Origin: Selenomonadaceae bacterium
Lineage (GTDB): Bacteria > Bacillota > Negativicutes > Selenomonadales > Selenomonadaceae
Reading direction: 5' to 3'
NCBI GenBank assembly: GCA_022773425.1
Contig: JALFBM010000019.1
Location: forward strand, 1-39,177
DNA: 39,177 nt
Part shown: positions 18,463-29,684 of the stretch, piece by piece
How the letters are laid out: the number at the start of each line of letters is the position of its first letter
How positions within the stretch are numbered: the first letter of the stretch is position 1
Notes under the pieces: generated by a model
Database searches by the model: none
The model's input: only the letters and a program-made list of their open reading frames with translations
What the model was told of the DNA's origin: nothing
Made by a program: the position numbers and the translations under genes

Positions 18463-19416
18463 TCAAAAGGGATCGTCCAGCACCTCCGTGGCCGCTTCGC
18501 GAGCCTTCTCGTATTCTGTGACCTTCGTCTCTGCCTGATGGTGCTCGTCAGGCTCTGGGTGAATCATCACGTCGAACGTGCCGAACTCCGCGCGGATCTT
18601 CTGCTCGATTTCATCGCATATCGCATGCACCTGTGCGAGATGCATACGCCCATCGAACAGGACGTGCACATCGAGCAGATTGTAGGAACCGGACCGCCGT
18701 GTGCGCAGGCAGTGATAGCCGCGCACCTCCGGGCACGAGCGAATGATCCGGCCGATTTTCTCTTCCTCGGTCTCCGGCAGACTCTCATCGGTCAGTGCCA
18801 TGACCGACTCGTAAACCATATGGGCGCCGGCGCGAAAGATGATGCCGGCCACGAAAATCGCGATGATCGGGTCGATCCAGGCCCAGCCGGTCAGCTGCAT
18901 GATGGCGAGCCCGGCCAGGACACCGACCGAAGTCCAGATATCTGACTTCAGATGCAGCCCATCGGCCTCGAGGGCCTGCGACCGGGTTTCCTTGCCGACC
19001 GCGACCAGGCGCCGCGAGACGAAGTAGTTGATCCCGATGGACACGACCATGATGACAATGCCGTATTCCAAACCATCCGGCACCGCCGTCTCGTAGAACT
19101 TCTTCATCGCCTCGTAGACGATGCCGAGCGCCGCACCGACGATCAGCACGGCCTCCACAGCAGCGGAAAGGTTCTCGTACTTCCCGTGCCCGTAGTCGTG
19201 CTCCTCATCCGGTGGCGTCACCGACTTCTTGACCGCCCAGAACGCGATCATGGATGCGAGCAGATCGACGCTCGAGTGCATGGCCTCTGAAATCAGACTG
19301 ACCGCACCGACCGAAAAGCCGACGATCAACTTCAATAAGACCAGGATCGTGTTGGAAAAAATGGACAGCCTCGCCGTATGCTGTTTTTTGCGGTCCAGCC
19401 GTTCTGCCTCTTCCAT
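18463..19416 (-). CDS. cation diffusion facilitator (CDF) metal/proton antiporter
   Basis: A 317-residue inner-membrane protein that exports divalent metals (Zn, Fe, Mn, Co or Ni) in exchange for protons. Six hydrophobic segments fill residues 15-205. The family metal-site signatures are present: SEAMHSSVD in TM2, and ADGLHLKSDIWTSVG in TM5. The cytoplasmic C-terminal domain (about 210-317) has the CDF beta-alpha-beta fold with VHVLFDGRMHLAQVHAICDEIE, and a final acidic/His tail HPEPDEHHQAE. Start: the ATG at 19416 (MEEAERL) follows GGGGGTGG; the longer frame to 19536 lacks a ribosome site. No terminator with a U-tract is seen, and its own promoter is not obvious. The metal specificity is unknown; the proximity of nickel-enzyme genes is suggestive but 770 bases and another gene intervene. 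Confidence 0.9.
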   Translation of the reverse strand: MEEAERLDRKKQHTARLSIFSNTILVLLKLIVGFSVGAVSLISEAMHSSVDLLASMIAFWAVKKSVTPPDEEHDYGHGKYENLSAAVEAVLIVGAALGIVYEAMKKFYETAVPDGLEYGIVIMVVSIGINYFVSRRLVAVGKETRSQALEADGLHLKSDIWTSVGVLAGLAIMQLTGWAWIDPIIAIFVAGIIFRAGAHMVYESVMALTDESLPETEEEKIGRIIRSCPEVRGYHCLRTRRSGSYNLLDVHVLFDGRMHLAQVHAICDEIEQKIRAEFGTFDVMIHPEPDEHHQAETKVTEYEKAREAATEVLDDPF

Positions 19417-19471
19417 GCTTCCACCCCCGATAGATTTTAACATCCCATGTTTATTTTCTTGGAAAAACCTA

Positions 19472-19500
19472 TGGACAAACGCCGCGGTTTCCCGTATAAT
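19472..19500 (+). promoter_or_regulatory. sigma-70 promoter for a candidate small RNA
   Basis: TGGACA at 19472-19477, a 17-base spacer and a perfect TATAAT at 19495-19500, on the plus strand. No protein-coding gene lies downstream on this strand, but a series of hairpins ending in a terminator does (19507-19590). It diverges from the CDF gene. Confidence 0.7.
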
Positions 19501-19506
19501 GAGCTT

Positions 19507-19590
19507 TGTCGAGCAATCGACATTACTCAAAAGCACTTATTTTGTTTTTTCTCGTTTTCGAGTTCCGACGCCGAAAGGCGTTCTTTTTTT
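19507..19590 (+). ncRNA. candidate small regulatory RNA (about 84 nt)
   Basis: Predicted to start about seven bases after the TATAAT at 19495-19500. Three hairpins are visible: TGTCGA-GCAA-TCGACA at the 5' end (6 bp with a GNRA-type loop, 19507-19522), CTCG-TTTT-CGAG (19551-19562), and ACGCC-GAAA-GGCGT (19568-19581) followed by TCTTTTTTT. The middle is a U-rich single strand (19523-19550), as seen in many trans-acting small RNAs. No significant ORF with a ribosome site is present, and it matches no RNA family that I recognise. Transcription is inferred from promoter and terminator alone. Confidence 0.5.
19567..19590 (+). terminator. rho-independent terminator of the candidate small RNA
   Basis: ACGCC-GAAA-GGCGT (with an extra G-T pair) followed by TCTTTTTTT on the plus strand. 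There is no plus-strand coding gene upstream, so it most likely ends the transcript from the 19472 promoter. On the minus strand the hairpin is followed by A/G, so it is not a minus-strand terminator. Confidence 0.75.
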
Positions 19591-20184: not shown

Positions 20185-21192
20185 TTAGCAGATCCGCGGT
20201 ACGATATTGCCGAGCGGCATATCGACGATGCGGATTCCGCCGACGCTCGTGCGCATGCCGACCTGGCCCGGCGCGTCCTCCGTGGTCTCCCCGAGGATGA
20301 CCGCGTCCTTGCCATAAACGTTCGCGCGCATCGCGGACAGTACATCCTCCGCGGATTCCGCGGGAACAAACGCAATGCATTTTCCCTCGTTGGCGAGGTA
20401 GAGCGGATCAAAGCCCAGGATATCGCAGACACCCTGCACCTCCGGATGAATCGGAATGGCGTCCTCGTCGATGAGTACGCCGCAGCCGGACGCCTCCGCG
20501 ATCTCGTTCAGCACGGCCGCGACGCCGCCGCGCGTCGGATCCCGCAGTACCGCGATATCTGGGCACACCTTCAGCATGGCGCGCGTCAGCTTGTTTAGCG
20601 GCGCGCAGTCCGTGCGGATGTAATCCGGCAGCTCCAGCCCATGGCGTCCCGCCATCACGGCGGCTGCATGATCGCCGATGAAGCCGGAAAGCAGAACCTT
20701 CATGCCCGGCTTGACGTTCTGCGGTGCGATATGCGTCCCCGGGATGAGGTCGCCGATGCCCGCCGTGTTGATGAAGATGCCGTCCGCTTTCCCCTTCTCG
20801 ACGACCTTCGTGTCGCCCGTCACGATCTGCACGCCGGCGGCATCGGCCATCTGCCGCATCGTATGCGCGATGGTGCGCAGATCCTTCATGGGGAACCCTT
20901 CTTCGATAATCATGCCGCAGGTGATATAGCGCGGCACCGCCCCCGTCATCGAAAGATCGTTGACCGTCCCGCAGACCGCGAGCTTGCCAATGTTGCCGCC
21001 GGCAAAGAACAGCGGTTGCACAACATAGGAATCCGTCGTAAAGGCGATGTGCCCGCTCATCGCAACCTGCGCGCCATCGTGCAGCTCGTTGAGATATGGG
21101 TTGCCGAACTCGGGCAGCAGAACCCGCTCCATGAGCTCGTGGCTCATCTTGCCGCCCGCCCCGTGTGCGAGCGTTACGCGATCATTTCCCAT
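20185..21192 (-). CDS. hypE: [NiFe] hydrogenase maturation protein HypE
   Basis: A 335-residue PurM-like enzyme that dehydrates the carbamoyl group on its C-terminal cysteine to a thiocyanate, supplying the CN ligands of the NiFe site. The N-terminal HGAGGKMSHELM is at about residues 9-20, followed by the ATP-binding region with FTTDSYVV. The obligatory C-terminal P-R-I-C is present, with C335 the acceptor. Start: the ATG at 21192 has AGGGGAGG upstream within the hypD end; the longer frame to 21231 has no ribosome site. It overlaps the end of hypD by 11 bases. The carbamoyl donor enzyme HypF is not encoded in this window. Confidence 0.95.
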   Translation of the reverse strand: MGNDRVTLAHGAGGKMSHELMERVLLPEFGNPYLNELHDGAQVAMSGHIAFTTDSYVVQPLFFAGGNIGKLAVCGTVNDLSMTGAVPRYITCGMIIEEGFPMKDLRTIAHTMRQMADAAGVQIVTGDTKVVEKGKADGIFINTAGIGDLIPGTHIAPQNVKPGMKVLLSGFIGDHAAAVMAGRHGLELPDYIRTDCAPLNKLTRAMLKVCPDIAVLRDPTRGGVAAVLNEIAEASGCGVLIDEDAIPIHPEVQGVCDILGFDPLYLANEGKCIAFVPAESAEDVLSAMRANVYGKDAVILGETTEDAPGQVGMRTSVGGIRIVDMPLGNIVPRIC

Positions 21193-22294
21193 AATGGAAC
21201 CTCCCCTGACCGTATTTATAGTACGCGGCACAAACGCCCTCGACGGAGACCATGCACGGCCCGACCGCGTGGATCGGTACGCAGGCCCTGCCGAACAGCG
21301 GGCATTCGCGCGGTGTTACGATGCCGCGCAGCACCTCGCCGCAGCGGCAACCCGGCTTGTTCTCGCCCATCGGGATGTCGAGCGGCAACAGCCGTTCGAT
21401 ATCGTAGGCCGCAAAGGCCTTGCGCATTTTCATGCCGGATTTCGGCACGATGCCGATGCCGCGCCAACCCGTGTCCTCGGGCTCGTAAACGGTATCCATG
21501 ACGCGTTGCGCGACGGGGCTGCCGTCCCGCGTCACAACGTCCTCGTACTCGTTCTCAATGTTCGCCTCGCCGCGCGTCACCTGCTGAAGCAGGCGCACGA
21601 TGGCCCGCAGGATCTGCACGGGCTCAAAGCCAGCGACGACGCCCGGGATGTGGTATTCCATCGTCAGGAAATCAAAAACCTTCGTACCGGTGATGACCGA
21701 AACATGACCGGGCAGCAGGAAGCCGTCCACATGGACCTCCGGATCGTGGAGAAGCGCATGCATGACCGGCGGCACGAGCTTTTGCGCCGAAAGCATGTAG
21801 AGGTTCCGCAGGCCCTCCTTCTGCGCGGCGAGCACCGTTGCCGCGGCCGTCGGCGTCGTCGTCTCGAAACCGACGGCGAGGAACACGACCTTTTTCTCTG
21901 GATTTTCGCGCGCAACCTTCAGACTGTCCATCGGCGAATACACGATGCGGATATCCGCGCCCGCCGCCTTCGCCTCCATGAGGCTCGACTGGCTACCCGG
22001 TACCTTCAGCATATCGCCGAACGTCGTGATGATGACGTCCTCGCGTTTCGCGTAGGTGATGGCCTTGTCCATATAATCGTCCGGCGTCACGCAGACCGGG
22101 CACCCAGGGCCCGAGACCAGTTCGACATTTTCCGGCAGCATTTGGCGGATGCCCGCGCGGAAAATCGAAACGGTATGCGTGCCGCAGACCTCCATGAAGC
22201 GGACCTTATGATCGAGCTTTGCCGCGAGGCGGCGGATTTCGGCGGTCAGTTCCTTGGCGACCGCGCGCTCATGCGTTTTTGTCTGCTTGTCCAC
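21182..22294 (-). CDS. hypD: [NiFe] hydrogenase maturation protein HypD
   Basis: A 370-residue iron-sulfur scaffold on which, with HypC, the Fe(CN)2CO moiety is assembled. Diagnostic motifs: MEVCGTHT near residue 27, SGPGCPVCVTPDDY near residue 60, and GFETTTPTAAA in the middle. The C-terminal cysteines of the 4Fe-4S cluster follow (PGCRCGEV, then C at PRECPLFGRAC). Start: GTG at 22294, nine bases after GGAGG inside the 3' end of hypC; it overlaps hypC by 26 bases. The apparent longer frame to 22399 runs over hypC and is not real. Confidence 0.94.
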   Translation of the reverse strand: MDKQTKTHERAVAKELTAEIRRLAAKLDHKVRFMEVCGTHTVSIFRAGIRQMLPENVELVSGPGCPVCVTPDDYMDKAITYAKREDVIITTFGDMLKVPGSQSSLMEAKAAGADIRIVYSPMDSLKVARENPEKKVVFLAVGFETTTPTAAATVLAAQKEGLRNLYMLSAQKLVPPVMHALLHDPEVHVDGFLLPGHVSVITGTKVFDFLTMEYHIPGVVAGFEPVQILRAIVRLLQQVTRGEANIENEYEDVVTRDGSPVAQRVMDTVYEPEDTGWRGIGIVPKSGMKMRKAFAAYDIERLLPLDIPMGENKPGCRCGEVLRGIVTPRECPLFGRACVPIHAVGPCMVSVEGVCAAYYKYGQGRFHYGK

Positions 22295-22541
22295 CGACCG
22301 TTTCCTCCAATCCTTCGACCGTGCGCGGCGCGCCGTGCATTTCCGCGAGCAGCGCGTCGGTTTCCTCCGCGTCCTTCTCGTCGACGATCTGCATGGCAAA
22401 GCCCGCGTGAACGAGCACGAAATCGCCGACCCTTGCCTCAGGCAGAAGCATCATCGAAACATCGCGCGTCACACCCGAAATCTCGACCTTGCCGATCGCG
22501 TCCTTCAGCGCGACGACCCTAGCTGGAACAGCCAAACACAT
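22269..22541 (-). CDS. hypC: [NiFe] hydrogenase maturation chaperone HypC
   Basis: A 90-residue small chaperone that binds HypD and delivers the iron fragment to the large-subunit precursor. It starts with the invariant MCLAVPARV, where C2 is the functional cysteine, followed by an OB-like beta barrel (KVEISGVTRDVSM, VGDFVLVHAGFAM). The C-terminal tail (about residues 60-90) is acidic. Ribosome site GGAGGGAGAATACA. hypD starts within its last codons, so the pair is translationally coupled. Confidence 0.95.
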   Translation of the reverse strand: MCLAVPARVVALKDAIGKVEISGVTRDVSMMLLPEARVGDFVLVHAGFAMQIVDEKDAEETDALLAEMHGAPRTVEGLEETVGGQADKNA

Positions 22542-22583: not shown

Positions 22584-23186
22584 TCAGTCCTCCGCGCACC
22601 CGCGCGTGAGTTCTTCATGTACCACCGTAAAATTCAGCGTCTCCGCGTTCGCCCGCGGCTCCGGCTCGATGCCCCAGGCCCTGAGCTCTTTTAGCGCCTG
22701 TTTTACGATCCGCGGCAAGATCGCCTGCATGCCGCTGGACAGCTCAACCCCTGCCTCGAGGTCGTACGGCTGCGCGCCTATCACGACGACATCGGGGATC
22801 TTGTGCCCAGTGACCGTCAGCAGCGCGAGCACGTCCTGAATGCCGACCTCGTGCGCGCTGAGCTTGTCCTGGAAATGCGCCATGACCGCGTCGTTTTCAA
22901 AGCGGAACACCGTGCCGGGCGCCGCGTGCCCATTGATAGAGTCGATGACGAGCAGCTTTTTCGTGCCGGTCACGTACTGCGTGAGCTCGATGCCAAGCGT
23001 TCCGCCGTCGACAATCTGCACGGTATCCGGCCAGTCGTAATGGCTGTCAAGATACTCCGCAACGCGCACACCGAAGCCCTCGTCGCGCAGGATGACGTTG
23101 CCGACGCCGAGGACCGTGACCTCGGCCAGATGCAGCACATCTGCGGCCGCGGCGTTGTCCGCACCATTCCCGAACGCGTCACTCAT
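22584..23186 (-). CDS. [NiFe] hydrogenase maturation endopeptidase (HyaD/HybD/HupD family)
   Basis: A 200-residue protease that cleaves the C-terminal extension of the large subunit after nickel insertion. The family signature VTVLGVGNVILRDEGFGV (near residues 23-40) includes the nickel-sensing E36; the second and third ligands fit D82 in VIDSINGH and H102 in SAHEVG. The GGTLGIELT stretch between them is also typical. Start: ATG at 23186 with AGGAG upstream; its ATGA overlaps the hypB stop, so it is coupled to hypB. The extended frame to 23339 is inside hypB and is not used. It presumably processes the hydrogenase at 25341-27263 and no other in this window. Confidence 0.9.
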   Translation of the reverse strand: MSDAFGNGADNAAAADVLHLAEVTVLGVGNVILRDEGFGVRVAEYLDSHYDWPDTVQIVDGGTLGIELTQYVTGTKKLLVIDSINGHAAPGTVFRFENDAVMAHFQDKLSAHEVGIQDVLALLTVTGHKIPDVVVIGAQPYDLEAGVELSSGMQAILPRIVKQALKELRAWGIEPEPRANAETLNFTVVHEELTRGCAED

Positions 23187-23848
23187 GCCTGCGCTCCTTT
23201 CTTTTCTGCGACTTTCTGCAGAAGCCAGCCGCACCAATCCTCGATACCCTGATTTTTCGTGCAGGAGACCTCGACGATCTTCACCCCCGGATTCAGCGTG
23301 TCGATATCTTCCTCCGCGTTCGCGAGGCTGAAATTGCAATACGGCACGAGATCCACCTTGTTCAACAGGACGATCGAGGACTCCTTGAAAATCAGCGGGT
23401 ATTTCATCGGCTTGTCCTCACCCTCGGTGATGGACAGGACAACCGCGCTGTCATCCGCGCCGATCGGGAAATCCGCCGGGCAGACGAGGTTGCCGACGTT
23501 CTCGACGATCAGCAGGTCGAGCCCATCGAGGTCGAGATCCTTCGCCGTCTGCTGCACCATCGGCGCGTCGAGATGGCAACCGCCGGCCGTGTTGATCTGG
23601 ATGACCGGCACGCCGTGCTTCTCGATGCGCTCCGCGTCCTTGCTCGTGAAAAGATCGCCCTCGATGACCGCCATGTGCACTTTGTCCTTGAGGTATTCCA
23701 TCGTCTTCTCGAGCACAGAGGTCTTGCCGGCGCCCGGCGATCCCATGAGATTCAATACATATACCTTTTTCTCCTGAAACATCGCCCGATTCTCCGCCGC
23801 AATGCGGTCGTTCTCTCCGAGAATATTTTTCATGACCTTGACTTCCAT
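23183..23848 (-). CDS. hypB: [NiFe] hydrogenase nickel-insertion GTPase HypB (no N-terminal Ni motif)
   Basis: A 221-residue SIMIBI-class GTPase that works with HypA in nickel delivery. The P-loop is LMGSPGAGKTS near residues 34-44, the switch-region metal site GGCHLDAPM holds the conserved Cys-His pair, and the LLNKVDL specificity motif follows. The N-terminus MEVKVMKNILGEND has neither the CxxCGC nickel motif nor the His-rich stretch found in many HypB proteins; instead that Cys motif is found on the separate protein at 24312-24554. Ribosome site AGGAGG six bases before the ATG. It is followed by the maturation protease with a 4-base overlap and preceded by hypA with a 10-base gap. Confidence 0.95.
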   Translation of the reverse strand: MEVKVMKNILGENDRIAAENRAMFQEKKVYVLNLMGSPGAGKTSVLEKTMEYLKDKVHMAVIEGDLFTSKDAERIEKHGVPVIQINTAGGCHLDAPMVQQTAKDLDLDGLDLLIVENVGNLVCPADFPIGADDSAVVLSITEGEDKPMKYPLIFKESSIVLLNKVDLVPYCNFSLANAEEDIDTLNPGVKIVEVSCTKNQGIEDWCGWLLQKVAEKKGAQA

Positions 23849-23858
23849 GGGAGTCCTC

Positions 23859-24200
23859 CTATTCCATGTCCAGATACTCGACCTGCATCTCGTTGCCAGT
23901 CTCGACCTTCAGCACGCCGTCCTTGCAATCCGGGCACCAAAAATTGTAGCCCTCAATCGGGAAAACCCGGCCGCATTTCGTGCACCGTCCCGTGAGCGGC
24001 ACCGTCTCGATGGCGATTTCTGCGCCCTCCGCCGGCGTCCCTTCCGCGAGCATATGAAAGCTGAACCGCAGAGACTCTTCGACGACGCCAGCCATCGCAC
24101 CGATGCGCAGGCCGATCTTCTTCACCTTTTTCGCCTGGTTCCTGGCGGCATAGTCCTTGACAATGTCCATAATGCCCTCAGCAATCGACATTTCATGCAA
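23859..24200 (-). CDS. hypA: [NiFe] hydrogenase nickel metallochaperone HypA
   Basis: A 113-residue chaperone that passes nickel to the large subunit. With the TTG start at 24200 the protein begins MHEMSIAEG, giving the required H2 and E3 nickel-site residues. The zinc loop is CTKCGRVF, followed by CPDCKDG (two CxxC pairs). The frame open to 24290 would bury the His, and TTG is preceded by a GGGGGG ribosome site. Typical HypA length. It lies downstream of a 10-bp hairpin (24236-24278) that separates it from the small CGCG-motif gene, and directly upstream of hypB. Confidence 0.93.
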   Translation of the reverse strand: MHEMSIAEGIMDIVKDYAARNQAKKVKKIGLRIGAMAGVVEESLRFSFHMLAEGTPAEGAEIAIETVPLTGRCTKCGRVFPIEGYNFWCPDCKDGVLKVETGNEMQVEYLDME

Positions 24201-24235
24201 CGAACATACCCCCCACCCGTATATTTTTCCAACAA

Positions 24236-24278
24236 GAAAGCGCCTGTTCCCATTGATTGTAACAGGAAAGGCGCTTTC
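24236..24278 (-). repeat. intra-operon hairpin between the CGCG-motif gene and hypA
   Basis: On the minus strand GAAAGCGCCT and AGGCGCTTTC form a perfect 10-bp stem, with a further possible CCTGTT/AACAGG pairing in the loop. It is followed by TTGTTGG, a weak U-run, so it may be a leaky terminator or a processing/stability site that lowers hyp transcripts relative to the structural genes. This is inference. Confidence 0.55.
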
Positions 24279-24311
24279 CTTCAAATCCACAGCCTGTCGC
24301 TGAAGCTATCT

Positions 24312-24554
24312 TTACAGTTCCGCCTCAAGCCCGCGGTCCGAAAATACCTTCAGGATTTCCGTCAGCTTCGTCTTCGACGGCATGTAGTCCACCGTCGTCT
24401 CGCCCTCATGCCAGTGGATATGGACGTATACGACACCCGGCAAGCCGAGAAGCTTCTTCTCGACCTCCTTCGCGCCGTCTTCCGTGTATCCCTTGACGAG
24501 GAACTGCAGGCGCGTATTACCATTCGTCTGGCCGCAGCCGCATTCTTTGCACAT
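24312..24554 (-). CDS. small putative metallochaperone: CxxCGCG motif plus HMA-like fold
   Basis: An 80-residue protein. It starts MCKECGCGQTNGN, with C2, C5 and C7 placed exactly as in the nickel-binding N-terminus of E. coli HypB (MCTTCGCG). After a short linker the rest has an HMA/ferredoxin-like order of strands and helices (LQFLVKGYT, EVEKKLLGLPGVVYVHIHW, ETTVDY, KLTEILKVF). The usual MxCxxC of HMA proteins is missing, but strand 2 holds HIHWHE (H45, H47, H49). It sits between the cytochrome b gene and hypA, so it belongs to the hydrogenase operon. Ribosome site AGGAG about 10 bases before the ATG. I propose a nickel-handling role alongside HypA and the motif-less HypB; no function is established. 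Confidence 0.75.
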   Translation of the reverse strand: MCKECGCGQTNGNTRLQFLVKGYTEDGAKEVEKKLLGLPGVVYVHIHWHEGETTVDYMPSKTKLTEILKVFSDRGLEAEL

Positions 24555-24598: not shown

Positions 24599-25300
24599 TT
24601 ATTTCGTCTCGATTGGCGGTTCGACCTCATTGGCATCCTTCGGCGTATGCTCGAGGAACTTGACGCCCGAGAACATCGAGGAGGCCTCACCCTCTGCCTC
24701 CATCATGTCGGCGCGCAGGACCATGTAGACATGGCCGATGGCGAAGACGATGATGAGCCAGGCGACGATGTGGTGAACCCAGTGCGTGATCATCTCGTTG
24801 CCGAGGAGCACGTTGACCCAGCCGAACAGCGTGCCACCGATATTGCTCGGCTCCGTCATGTAGTACATCGCGAATCCGGTCAGGATCTCAACCAGTACCA
24901 TGGCGTAGAGCCCCGCGTATGACATGCGCGCGAGCGGATTGCGCAGGAACGGCGCATGCGACGGCTTCAGCAGCATATAATGCAGAGCGACGTCCAGCGT
25001 CTCGCTGTAGAAATGCCCTTCCCACACGCGCGGGAACAGGCGGTCGCCCTTGTTCACGATAAACCCGTAAATGCGCAGGATGAACGAAGCGCAGAACAGG
25101 AACGCGAAGATGAAATGAATGTTTCTTACCCAATCCATGGACATGGACGTGAAGGTCGGCTCAATTCCCACGACCGTCACCGGTTTCGCAATCAGAATGC
25201 CCGTGACAAAGAGCACGACGATGGACAAGACCATGATCCAGTGGAAAATCCGCAGGAACGGACTGAACAGGTAGTAGACTTTCCGTTTTTCCTCTTTCAT
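24599..25300 (-). CDS. [NiFe] hydrogenase b-type cytochrome subunit
   Basis: A 233-residue membrane protein that accepts electrons from the small subunit and passes them to the quinone pool. Four hydrophobic segments lie at about residues 15-36, 60-80, 130-150 and 180-200; His residues at H20 (FHWIM), H62 (IHFIF), and the HWVHHIV and GHVYMV stretches are candidate haem ligands. The SPFLRIFHW start matches the HyaC/HupC family. The C-terminal tail is acidic and may face the cytoplasm. It follows the large-subunit gene by 40 bases; 44 bases separate it from the small CGCG-motif gene. Group 1 uptake hydrogenases normally carry such an anchor. Confidence 0.9.
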   Translation of the reverse strand: MKEEKRKVYYLFSPFLRIFHWIMVLSIVVLFVTGILIAKPVTVVGIEPTFTSMSMDWVRNIHFIFAFLFCASFILRIYGFIVNKGDRLFPRVWEGHFYSETLDVALHYMLLKPSHAPFLRNPLARMSYAGLYAMVLVEILTGFAMYYMTEPSNIGGTLFGWVNVLLGNEMITHWVHHIVAWLIIVFAIGHVYMVLRADMMEAEGEASSMFSGVKFLEHTPKDANEVEPPIETK

Positions 25301-25340: not shown

Positions 25341-27263
25341 TTATTTTTTCTCCACATGGGTGCCGGAATACGGATCCGTCGTGACCACGCGGATTTCCTC
25401 GCCCTTCGCGTTGAACATATGCGTCGCGCAGGCCATGCACGGATCGAACGAACGGATGACCTTGACGATCTCGAGGGGCTTGTCCGGGATGGCGACATGC
25501 GTGTCCATCATCGCCTTTTCATAGGCACCATGGCCGGCCTGGTCATCGCGCGGGCAGGCGTTCCAGGTCGTCGGGACGACGCACTGATAGTTGTCCGTCT
25601 TGCCGTTCTTGATGACGATCCAGTGCGAGAGACCGCCGCGCGGTGCCTCGTAAAGACCGACGCCCTTGCATTCTTTCGGCCATTTCTCCGGATCCCATTT
25701 CTCCATGTTCGCGACCTTCGTATCGCCGGATTTGATGTTCGCGACGAGCTTGTCGAAGAAGAACTTGTTGATCTCGGCATTGAGCTGGCAGTCGAGGCCA
25801 CGGCATGCCGTACGGCCGACCATCGTCGGCATCCAAACCTCCGGCTTCAGATTCAGGACCTTGGATACGGCTTCGATCTGGTCGATCATCATCTTTTCCG
25901 CCCAGGTCAGATCGCCGAGCAAGCCCTTCTTGTACTTCGTGTAGATGACAATATAGCGGGCGAGCGGGCCGACCTCGCAGAGTTTGCCGCGCCATTTCGG
26001 CGTCTTGAGCCAGGAGTACTTACCCTGCTCGTCGAGTTCCTTCCACTCCGTGTCCGTGCCGACCTTCGGGCTCGTGAAATGCGGCTCCGTCTCGCCGTCC
26101 CACGGGTTCAGGTTGTCGCTGTCGCTGCCCTTGTACTTGTACCAGGAATGCTCAACGCTCTCGGTGAGCACGGACGGATCCTGCACATCCTCCGCGTTGA
26201 TCTCGCTGAACGACGCGTTCTCGACGCCCTTGCCGAAGTCCTCGACGACACCGTTGCAGCGGACGAGCAGGTTCTTAAAGAAGTCGCCGTTCGTCGTACC
26301 GGAGAACGGCTCAATCGGGTACGCACCATAGGCGAGCACCCGCTCTTTCGCGAGGCCGCCGCCGTCGACGCGACCGGCCTTGACGAACGCCGTGCCGATG
26401 GCGAGCAGGTCCGGGATGTAGTAGTTGTTGACGAGCGTGCGCCCGAGGTTGATCGCGCGGTCAACGATGCCAAGGCGCGCGGAATTGACCGGCGCGTTGC
26501 CATCCTCCATCGAGATAGAGCACGGCATGCCGCCGACGACGTAATGCGGATGCGGGTTTTTGCCGCCGAAGATGACGTGCGGCGTCACGAGCTCACGCTG
26601 CTTGTCGAGCATTTCGAGATAGTGCGCGACCGCCATCAGATGCACTTCCGGCGGAAGCAGGTTATAATCCGGATGATCCCACCAGTTCGCCGAGAAGATG
26701 CCGAGCTGGCCACTGTCGACAATGGCCTTGATCTTGGTTTTGATCTCATCGAAATACTGCGGCGTCGCGGCCGGGAACGCATGGTCATAGGCCTCCGTCG
26801 CCGGGACATCCGAACCCGGTGCGCGGAACGGCAGCTTGTACGTATTCAGTACCGTGTTCTGCAGGTTCGCCGTCGCGACCGGATCCGCGTTGAGCGCCGC
26901 GACCGGGGAAACCCAGTCGAGCGCGTGCAGATGATAGAAATGCACGAGATGATCCTGTACCGTCAGCGTCGCAGCCATGATGTTGCGAATGTAGTTCGCG
27001 TTCTTCGGGATCGTGATGCCGAGTGCGTCCTCAACGGCGCGCAGCGAAGCGAGCGCATGCGCCGTCGTGCAGACGCCGCAGATGCGCTGAATATACGCCC
27101 AATCGTCACGCGGGTCGCGGTCTTTCATGACGAGCTCGAGGCCGCGCCATGCCGTGCCGGAGGAAAGGGCATCCGTTACCTTGCCGCTGCCCTCGTCGAC
27201 GTTCACCTCAACGCGGAGATGCCCCTCAATGCGGGTAATCGGGTCTACTACTACATGTTTCAT
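25341..27263 (-). CDS. [NiFe] uptake hydrogenase large subunit
   Basis: A 640-residue catalytic subunit carrying the NiFe(CN)2CO site. The first cysteine pair is RICGVC (C62, C65) and the second DPCMACATH (C609, C612, H615). Maturation should cleave after H615. The residue run after it is 25 residues long, MFNAKGEEIR to the lysine-rich end, compared with about 15 in typical relatives. The sequence around EDALGITIPKNANYIRNI is of group 1 type. The start ATG overlaps the small-subunit stop by one base (TAATG), so translation is coupled. The matching protease is encoded in the same run (22584-23186). Oxidises H2 in the periplasm; coupled to the cytochrome b subunit. Confidence 0.95.
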   Translation of the reverse strand: MKHVVVDPITRIEGHLRVEVNVDEGSGKVTDALSSGTAWRGLELVMKDRDPRDDWAYIQRICGVCTTAHALASLRAVEDALGITIPKNANYIRNIMAATLTVQDHLVHFYHLHALDWVSPVAALNADPVATANLQNTVLNTYKLPFRAPGSDVPATEAYDHAFPAATPQYFDEIKTKIKAIVDSGQLGIFSANWWDHPDYNLLPPEVHLMAVAHYLEMLDKQRELVTPHVIFGGKNPHPHYVVGGMPCSISMEDGNAPVNSARLGIVDRAINLGRTLVNNYYIPDLLAIGTAFVKAGRVDGGGLAKERVLAYGAYPIEPFSGTTNGDFFKNLLVRCNGVVEDFGKGVENASFSEINAEDVQDPSVLTESVEHSWYKYKGSDSDNLNPWDGETEPHFTSPKVGTDTEWKELDEQGKYSWLKTPKWRGKLCEVGPLARYIVIYTKYKKGLLGDLTWAEKMMIDQIEAVSKVLNLKPEVWMPTMVGRTACRGLDCQLNAEINKFFFDKLVANIKSGDTKVANMEKWDPEKWPKECKGVGLYEAPRGGLSHWIVIKNGKTDNYQCVVPTTWNACPRDDQAGHGAYEKAMMDTHVAIPDKPLEIVKVIRSFDPCMACATHMFNAKGEEIRVVTTDPYSGTHVEKK

Positions 27264-28357
27264 TACTCTTCACCTGCCCCTTTCTCGGCCTTTTCCGCTG
27301 CGATGCGTTTCTTTTTCTGTACGACGGAAGCCGCACCGTGTGCGACGACGCCGGCCGCCGTCACGCCGGCAATCGCCGCGCCGATCTTATCGACGTCGCC
27401 GATCGGCTGGCCAAATTTCGGCAGGCGCTCCGAGAACTTGCCGGAATCCCAGAAGTTCGCGTTCGAGCAGCCGATACACGGGGCGCCGGACTGAATCGGA
27501 TAGCTCATGCCCTGGAACCAGCGCAGGTTGCCGCAGGAGTTATAGGTCTCCGGGCCACGGCAGCCGAGCTTGTACAGGCACCAGCCGCCCTTCGAACCCG
27601 CGTCATCGAAGTTCTCCGCGAACATGCCCGCATCGAAGAACGGACGGCGGTAGCAGGTATCGTGAATGCGGTTGCCGTAGAACTGTTTCGGACGGCCCTG
27701 GCCATCGAGTGGCGGGACCTTGCCGAACAGTGCGACATGCATGACGACGCCCGTCATGACCTCCGGGATCGGCGGGCAGCCCGGCACATTGACGACCGGC
27801 GTGCTGCTCGTGAAATGCGAAACGCCGGACGAACCCGTCGGGTTTGGCGAAGCGGCCTGGATACCGCCCGAGACCGCGCAGGTACCGTAGGCAATAACCG
27901 CGGCAGCGTTCTCCGCTGCATGGCGCAGCGTATGCGTGAACGTATGGCCGCCGGACATACAGTATACACCGTTGTCCTTCGTGCAGGCCGCACCCTCAAC
28001 GGCGAGGATATACTGCCCCTTGAATTTTTGAATCAGCGTCTCGAGATGCTGCTCGAACGGCTCGCCCGAAGCGGCGCTGAGCAGATGATCGTACTCGAGG
28101 TCAATCTGACTCAAGACAACATCCGAAGCGAGCGGCGAAGCCGAACGGATGAACGACTCATCGCATCCCGTGCACTCGTGCCCGTGGATCCAGATGACCA
28201 CCGGCAGCGGTTTTTTCTCCGCCGCCGCGACAACCTTCTGCAGGTTGTCCGTCGACAATCCCATCAATGTGGTCAAGGCGACACAGCCCTTGATGAAATT
28301 TCTGCGGCTGATGCCTTTATGCAGGCATCTGTCCCATAAGCTCTCCCGTTTTTCCAC
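27263..28357 (-). CDS. [NiFe] uptake hydrogenase small subunit with Tat signal
   Basis: A 364-residue iron-sulfur subunit. The Tat motif SRRNFIKG is at residues 18-25, followed by a hydrophobic run, so the heterodimer is exported folded. The proximal cluster cysteines begin at HGHECTGCDES, followed by YGTCAVSGGIQAA and PGCPP. The distal cluster ligands are in IHDTCYRR and GWCLYKLGC, and the medial 3Fe-type set is NSC, CIGC. The C-terminus (about residues 315-345) is a single hydrophobic anchor ended by a charged tail. Start: GTG at 28357, seven bases after GAGGAGG. It is the first gene of the hydrogenase/hyp run, with a roughly 130-base leader that can fold into a long hairpin. Confidence 0.95.
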   Translation of the reverse strand: MEKRESLWDRCLHKGISRRNFIKGCVALTTLMGLSTDNLQKVVAAAEKKPLPVVIWIHGHECTGCDESFIRSASPLASDVVLSQIDLEYDHLLSAASGEPFEQHLETLIQKFKGQYILAVEGAACTKDNGVYCMSGGHTFTHTLRHAAENAAAVIAYGTCAVSGGIQAASPNPTGSSGVSHFTSSTPVVNVPGCPPIPEVMTGVVMHVALFGKVPPLDGQGRPKQFYGNRIHDTCYRRPFFDAGMFAENFDDAGSKGGWCLYKLGCRGPETYNSCGNLRWFQGMSYPIQSGAPCIGCSNANFWDSGKFSERLPKFGQPIGDVDKIGAAIAGVTAAGVVAHGAASVVQKKKRIAAEKAEKGAGEE

Positions 28358-28856: not shown

Positions 28857-29684
28857 TTATGCCTGCGTATGTTCTTTTCTCAGTCCCTCATTCATCGCGC
28901 CGGTACGATAGCCCTCAAGGTCGAGCGTCACGTAGAGATAGCCAAGCGCCTTCAGACGCTGCACGACGGCCTCGCGGAGCGTTGGATCGAGCATGCGTCC
29001 GATGTCCTCCGGCGGCAGCTCGATCCGCGCCATATCGCCGTGGTCGCGCACGCGGAACTGGCGGAACCCATGCGCCATCAGGAACTCCTCCGCCGTATTG
29101 ACACGTGCTAGGCCCTCCGGCGTCAGCGTATGCCCGTACGGAAAGCGCGAGGCAAGGCACGCAAAGCTCGGCTTGTTCCAGGTCGGCAGCCCGAGTTCGC
29201 GCGACAGATCCCGGATATCCTGCTTGTACATGCCGGCCTCGTGCAGCGGGCTCACGATGCCGAGCTCCGCAAGAGCCCGGTGCCCCGGGCGATAATCTCC
29301 ATCATCATCGAGATTCGATCCATCGACCACCGCCGTGAGGCCGCGCGCTGCCGCCTGCGCCTTCATTTCAGAAAACAGCGCATGTTTGCAGTAATAGCAG
29401 CGATCGTTCGGGTTCTCCGCGACATGCGGTACCTGCAGGATGGGAAACGGCACGACGACGTGCTCGACGCCGAGCGTGCGGCAGAACGCCGCTGCCTCGT
29501 CGACATCGCGCTGCGGTACGAAGTCCGACTGCGCCGTAAAGGCCACGGCCCGTGCACCGAGCGCATCATGCGCCGCGCGCACGAGAAAGGTCGAGTCCAC
29601 TCCGCTCGAAAAGGCCACGGCCACGCTGCCGAGCCCGCGCAGGATCTCCCCGAGCTTCTGATATTTCTGATGCAATTCATCCAT
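28857..29684 (-). CDS. larE: ATP-dependent sacrificial sulfur transferase LarE
   Basis: A 275-residue PP-loop enzyme that adenylates and thiolates the pyridinium dicarboxylate precursor of the nickel-pincer nucleotide cofactor (used by lactate racemase and relatives). The PP-loop is AFSSGVDSTF (SGVDS at 27-31). Cysteines at C96 and C99 (RCYYCK) and C176 (SFACLASRFPYG) are the three-cysteine set, which in some LarE enzymes binds a 4Fe-4S cluster that supplies the sulfur; single-Cys LarE proteins sacrifice the equivalent of C176. The partner genes larB and larC are not in the window. Its own promoter lies at 29739-29768; it ends against the tRNA terminator, so it is monocistronic. Confidence 0.9.
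   Translation of the reverse strand: MDELHQKYQKLGEILRGLGSVAVAFSSGVDSTFLVRAAHDALGARAVAFTAQSDFVPQRDVDEAAAFCRTLGVEHVVVPFPILQVPHVAENPNDRCYYCKHALFSEMKAQAAARGLTAVVDGSNLDDDGDYRPGHRALAELGIVSPLHEAGMYKQDIRDLSRELGLPTWNKPSFACLASRFPYGHTLTPEGLARVNTAEEFLMAHGFRQFRVRDHGDMARIELPPEDIGRMLDPTLREAVVQRLKALGYLYVTLDLEGYRTGAMNEGLRKEHTQA

Follow-up and report, generated by a model that had tools for sequence, protein, structure and literature searches.

hmaL, the label given here to a gene for an 80-residue protein with the HMA fold, is an uncharacterised, hydrogenase-linked HMA derivative of Negativicutes; the HMA fold itself is known. The gene lies on the minus strand at positions 24312-24554 of the window, that is, of the whole 39,177-nucleotide stretch of Selenomonadaceae DNA that was analysed, and its relatives form, by sequence, a real and strictly conserved family. 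A literature search found no paper on the hmaL protein. We propose, at slightly less than an even chance, that hmaL encodes a hydrogenase-dedicated metal chaperone, which would provide or hold metal for the enzyme, with Ni(II) as the most likely metal, and that it arose within Negativicutes from a CopZ/HMA-type protein. This proposal is built on the sequence, the predicted fold, the conservation, the gene order and the genome-level co-occurrence with [NiFe] hydrogenase.

The hmaL product (MCKECGCGQTNGNTRLQFLVKGYTEDGAKEVEKKLLGLPGVVYVHIHWHEGETTVDYMPSKTKLTEILKVFSDRGLEAEL; 80 aa, ORF 24312-24554 (-)) consists of an N-terminal tail (residues 1-8), a linker (residues 9-12) and an HMA-like fold (residues 13-80). 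The tail codons, M-C-K-E-C-G-C-G (24531..24554 (-)), place cysteines at positions 2, 5 and 7. Is this the genuine N-terminus? The start codon is ATG with AGGAG 9 nt upstream, and a Shine-Dalgarno-like site precedes the ATG-Cys start at a median spacing of 9 nt in 107 of 117 hmaL relatives. The position of this site in the window and in the relatives indicates that Cys2 is the true second residue, directly after Met. Because the initiator Met is removed when the second residue is small, Cys2 should become N-terminal in the mature protein. The ORF and the start evidence thus bear out the sequence-only reading, which had described an 80-residue protein that begins with MCKECGCG and has cysteines at these three positions.

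An AlphaFold model built from 51 family sequences exhibits the HMA topology (beta-alpha-beta-beta-alpha-beta) over residues 11-80 at a pLDDT of about 95 and leaves the tail (residues 1-10) disordered. The predicted strands (residues 13-21, 41-47, 52-57 and 77-79) and helices (residues 25-36 and 64-73) make up a ferredoxin-like fold. CopZ/CsoZ are the best structural matches to the model (VIA Z 12.8 and 12.6), and the hmaL family profile matches CopZ in the PDB at an E-value of about 2e-14. The window protein itself scores 18.2 bits against Pfam HMA (PF00403), under the cut-off of 24.8, and 22.4 bits against the CopZ NCBIfam NF033795, for which the cut-off is 91; its scores against other CopZ models are weak too. 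CopZ/Atx1-type copper chaperones (PF00403; PDB 2qif, 6ff1) therefore share fold and size with hmaL and are homologous to it by profile. Unlike these chaperones, hmaL lacks MxCxxC, carries HxHxH on beta2, has an added MCxxCGC tail and resides in a hydrogenase context. The loop at the usual MxCxxC place of HMA proteins reads GYTEDGA, and the His cluster is encoded by the H45-I46-H47-W48-H49 codons at 24408..24422 (-). Along beta2 the three histidines alternate with V44 and I46 and, judging from this strand pattern, should share one exposed face. An earlier description of the protein as HMA-like, with MxCxxC lost and H45-x-H47-x-H49 present, is confirmed by the GYTEDGA loop and the predicted HMA fold. 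UreE, which has an Atx1-like fold without CxxC, is not among the matches listed in the structure and profile comparisons with hmaL. UreE can be compared with hmaL only in how it works, in that the His-x-His pair His110/His112 binds metal in UreE (PMC7055735); it differs from hmaL in that no sequence match was found, in serving urease rather than hydrogenase and in its domain architecture.

The cysteine tail and the His cluster are highly conserved. Each of the 110 members retrieved purely by similarity begins with MCxxCGC, and among the 72 unique sequences of this similarity-found kind MC-x-ECGCG is invariant and HIHxH occurs in 71. In a larger, class-wide set of 100 unique HxH-type sequences, chosen to begin with MCxxC[G/H]C, C2, C5, C7 and H45 are present in all 100, H47 in 99 and H49 in 95. 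The codons of the invariant Cys and His residues in this set vary synonymously, with both synonymous codons used, and the conservation is thus not due to chance. The third His is replaced in genus g12 (HTHDD), and one further locus (L070) reads HIHAD. Genus g12 also has a His stretch straight after the tail (MCATCGCGNHDHHHDHD); His-rich N-terminal regions are found in nickel-storing HypBs (PMC7055735). The CxxC and HxH motifs do not coexist: of 118 members, 100 have HxH only, 13 have CxxC only, 5 have neither and none has both, and MxCxxC was found in none of the 100 HxH-type members.

The tail is not confined to the HxH type. MCxxCGC is also present on CopZ-type proteins with an intact GMxCxxC, and no nickel genes were recognised beside them; the tail is therefore not a nickel-specific marker. 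An MCxxCGC or near-MCxxCGC tail on a CopZ-type HMA protein with intact CxxC was seen at L217, L218, L219, L220, L222-L227, L229-L232 and L234; such tailed proteins occur in many Negativicutes, and family f35 adds a His-containing C-terminal tail. CxxC-type and HxH-type proteins fall largely on different sides of the tree. The simplest history, as far as sequences tell, is that the HMA family was already tailed and that one branch exchanged CxxC for an HxHxH cluster and came to be associated with hydrogenase. Since the tail would already have been present in the HMA family, its likeness to the E. coli HypB nickel site is best read as convergence.

This ancestry also raises the possibility that hmaL is a CopZ-like guard against soft metals, whose Cys tail binds Cu(I) or Zn and keeps the wrong metals from the hydrogenase or from HypA/HypB. 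The clear descent from HMA copper chaperones (the CopZ profile match at about 2e-14; Z 12.8), the occurrence of this tail on CopZ-type proteins whose CxxC is intact and the weak scores of the window protein against CopZ models all favor such a role. We nonetheless consider it unlikely, given that the MxCxxC copper site is missing from every HxH-type member, that conservation has shifted to His, a harder ligand, and that none of the neighbouring genes identified in the window is a copper gene.

The gene order on the minus strand is hyaA, hyaB, cytochrome b, hmaL, hypA, hypB, maturation protease, hypC, hypD and hypE. The small subunit of the [NiFe] hydrogenase (27263..28357 (-); TIGR00391, 5.7e-127), the large subunit (25341..27263 (-); PF00374, 4.8e-180) and the b-type cytochrome subunit (24599..25300 (-); TIGR02125, 1.8e-44) precede hmaL. 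hypA (23859..24200 (-); TIGR00100, 9.5e-28) follows it and starts at the ATG at 24200 (MHEM...); a longer ORF from 24290 uses an upstream in-frame GTG, and the TIGR00100 match begins at its residue 31. The remaining genes are hypB (23183..23848 (-); TIGR00073, 7.7e-81), with an intact G-domain Cys/His site, the gene for a HyaD/HybD-type maturation endopeptidase (22584..23183 (-); TIGR00140, 8.3e-46), hypC (22269..22541 (-); TIGR00074, 4.7e-25), hypD (21182..22399 (-) for the ORF as listed, with homology from residue 43; TIGR00075, 9.6e-144) and hypE (20185..21231 (-); TIGR02124, 2.7e-136). Two further genes flank this cluster on the same strand. A gene for LarE, a nickel-pincer cofactor enzyme (28857-29684 (-); TIGR00268, 2.5e-98), is located directly upstream of hyaA, and a CDF-family cation transporter (18463-19536 (-); TIGR01297) is encoded about 650 bp downstream of hypE, with one 141-aa ORF in between. 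Of 80 Selenomonadaceae loci, 6 have a LarE homologue upstream of the hydrogenase (L037, L038, L039, L043, L047 and L048), and the genome of the window has LarC elsewhere.

The gap between hmaL and hypA contains a 20-pair GC-rich hairpin (24234..24280 (-); fold z -3.0). A stem of at least 10 pairs is found in this gap at 36 of 41 loci, whereas the 100-nt stretch that precedes hmaL has one at 7 of the 41. Only at 14 of the 41 does the gap stem beat all 20 shuffles. The stem sequences differ between genera, and a T-run is often present. The hairpin may mark the end of the structural gene unit as an attenuator- or terminator-like element, for which these counts are suggestive but not proof. Its location suggests that hmaL belongs to the transcript of the structural subunits rather than with the hyp genes. 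A classical terminator was considered for the window hairpin and rejected, as there is no clear U-run behind the stem and the hairpin is absent from the promoter/terminator scan output. HypA and type-1 HypB (TIGR00100, TIGR00073), the neighbouring nickel-insertion factors, are both ordinary at this locus; they differ from hmaL in their unrelated folds and are encoded past the hairpin, outside the structural unit.

Does the association with hydrogenase extend beyond this locus? hmaL is present in 160 of 189 genomes of the order. With respect to the full [NiFe] large subunit, 153 of the 189 genomes have both, 7 have hmaL only, 9 have the large subunit only and 20 have neither; all 7 hmaL carriers in which no hydrogenase was detected are MAGs of 60-88% completeness. 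Among genomes that are at least 98% complete, the corresponding counts are 67, 0, 1 and 7 (Fisher p 4e-9, uncorrected for phylogeny), and 7 of the 8 near-complete genomes without hmaL also lack the [NiFe] large subunit. These joint absences represent approximately two independent events, one in genus g3 and one in a single genome (G023) within genus g5. hmaL presence thus tracks [NiFe] hydrogenase genome-wide, even where the two are unlinked, with few independent losses behind the pattern. hmaL is linked to the hydrogenase in 48 of the 80 Selenomonadaceae loci and has no hya gene nearby in the other 32; in genus g11, hmaL is often located away from the hydrogenase, yet the association holds. 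The idea that unlinked copies have no hydrogenase role was discarded because nearly all such g11 genomes do have hydrogenase. Three genomes with LarC lack both hydrogenase and hmaL (G007, G015 and G023), and one (G030) has hmaL and hydrogenase without LarC. This pattern indicates that hmaL follows hydrogenase and not nickel use in general. A role as a general nickel chaperone is weakened by the LarC-bearing, hydrogenase-less genomes without hmaL.

Beyond the order, the cytochrome b-hmaL-hypA slot is found again in four additional families of this class (G269, G278, G287 and G318), and many Negativicutes hyaA-hyaB-cytochrome b-protease loci occur without a linked hmaL. A phylum-wide search outside Negativicutes returned a single weak relative (G664, 2e-10), and a tblastn search of the plasmid collection with hmaL gave no match. 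The sequence-only reading had placed a stand-alone protein beside hydrogenase genes, and both the gene order and the presence/absence pattern uphold this tie. Several related arrangements were observed in the class. At L206 in G309, 29 bp separate the end of an HxH-type hmaL from larC (PF01969, a nickel insertion protein), which runs convergently. Tailed HMA-like proteins are encoded directly after hypE in hypD/hypE operons at L213:4049-4288 (-) and L221:3793-4095 (-), in G305 and G317; the L221 protein (G317) has no HxH and no Pfam match, and in both cases the hyp association is at another position. Many Negativicutes hypA-hypB pairs (L267-L306) lie beside a large ORF of roughly 570-690 aa in place of a hydrogenase, perhaps like the hypAB-linked oxidoreductases (PMC10134865).

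The N-terminal tail resembles the CXXCGC nickel site of E. coli HypB (NF053667) in having Cys2, Cys5 and Cys7 at the exact N-terminus, and both occur in a [NiFe] hydrogenase neighbourhood. hmaL possesses the MCxxCGC at the very N-terminus (MCKECGCG) that is a feature of the HypB prefix, and HypB_prefix_1 (NF053667) aligns with its residues 1-24 only, at 12.5 bits against a cut-off of 30. Unlike E. coli HypB, hmaL has no P-loop GTPase domain (TIGR00073 gave no match), and the HypB prefix was not found in Bacillota. The HypB of the window (23183-23848) begins with MEVKVMKNILGEND and contains neither CxxCGC nor a His stretch, as had been noted from the sequence at the outset; its G-domain metal residues are intact (GGCHL, NLVCP). 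These two motifs are present in all 40 HypB proteins of Selenomonadaceae hydrogenase loci, and none of the 40 has CxxCxC before the P-loop. A CxxCGC motif was likewise found in no HypB of 40 further loci elsewhere in the class. Every HypB examined in the class is thus motif-less, with or without a linked hmaL, and the absence of the motif neither requires nor predicts hmaL.

It was initially suggested that the high-affinity N-terminal nickel site of HypB had been relocated to hmaL, which would now load HypB with nickel. The MCxxCGC spacing at the exact N-terminus, the motif-less HypB next door and a natural in-frame fusion of the tail to HypA, read from the sequence of one genome (G031), are in keeping with this suggestion. 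However, HypB_prefix_1 exceeds its cut-off in 0 of 388 Bacillota genomes, with a positive E. coli control; across the class, the HypBs examined have no such motif, with hmaL or without it; and the tail is common to CopZ-type proteins, so an origin within the family is simpler. The move of the nickel-loading step out of HypB does not hold up against the prefix search and the motif-less HypBs, and we consider relocation quite improbable. As the sequences read, the view of hmaL as a piece moved out of HypB is not supported.

How might a protein of this kind serve hydrogenase? We propose that hmaL descends from a protein whose MxCxxC soft-metal site was lost, whose MCxxCGC tail was kept and which would have gained the strand-borne H45/H47/H49 cluster. 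Once Met is removed, an Ni(S)3(N) site like that of E. coli HypB (PMC7055735) could be built from Cys2, Cys5, Cys7 and the N-terminal amine, and the His cluster would provide a second, harder site, as does His110-x-His112 in UreE. The E. coli HypB site uses Cys2/5/7 and the amine to bind nickel, with a sub-picomolar Kd (PMC7055735), and the equal spacing makes nickel chemically plausible for hmaL. hmaL would be produced alongside the structural subunits (hyaA-hyaB-cytb-hmaL), and the most likely recipients of its metal would be HypA/HypB or, by direct transfer, the precursor of the large subunit. In this mechanism we infer the metal binding, the metal identity, the partner and the direction of transfer.

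Several observations count against this reading, among them the tail on CopZ-type proteins away from nickel genes and the small number of independent losses behind the co-occurrence. The strongest counter-evidence comes from G289, in which a divergent HxH homologue of hmaL (L208:3883-4122 (-)) closes an [FeFe]-hydrogenase operon (PF02906, 1.4e-79; PF02256; cytochrome b561, PF01292) and lies behind the cytochrome of an enzyme that needs no nickel. In addition, G031, the sole complete hydrogenase-bearing genome of the order found without full hmaL, retains its hydrogenase though hmaL is reduced to a stub (L144:3272-3709 (+); MCKECGCG...HIHS, MCKECGCGHRERTIHIHS...) that is in frame with HypA, which also has an ATG of its own, and keeps its own ribosome site. 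Similar [NiFe] hydrogenases are also found in other Negativicutes with no hmaL linked to them. Given the G289 operon, we place nickel and the full mechanism somewhat below an even chance.

The same operon brings forward an assembly factor that is not nickel-specific and acts on iron, Fe-S, heme or the cytochrome b subunit of membrane-bound hydrogenases generally. A general role of this type would account for the position of hmaL after the cytochrome b gene, which is seen in the linked [NiFe] loci inspected and again, for the HxH homologue, behind the cytochrome gene (PF01292) of the G289 [FeFe] hydrogenase, and the hairpin groups hmaL with the structural genes rather than with the hyp genes. 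On the other hand, many hyaA-hyaB-cytochrome b loci of the class have no hmaL, the G289 copy could act in trans on the [NiFe] enzyme that this genome carries elsewhere, and HxHxH together with a thiolate tail would be unusual for an Fe-S or heme carrier. We assign this assembly role a minor but appreciable probability.

In its more specific form, our proposed chaperone would be a stand-alone nickel donor for [NiFe]-hydrogenase maturation, constructed on a copper-chaperone fold with a HypB-like thiolate/amine site and a three-His site and feeding HypA/HypB or the large subunit, a role that we regard as possible while leaning to some degree against it. Where HypB gets its nickel and what purpose the CxxCGC site serves in E. 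coli are questions described as open in PMC7055735. With hmaL beside a motif-less HypB, a CxxCGC-type ligand set exists separately from the GTPase, so that its role is accessible to direct tests. If the nickel-donor role is true, hmaL would add a previously undescribed type to the hydrogenase nickel proteins HypA, HypB and SlyD, and a copper-chaperone fold would have been re-tooled for another metal, with CxxC lost and HxHxH gained, within one bacterial class.
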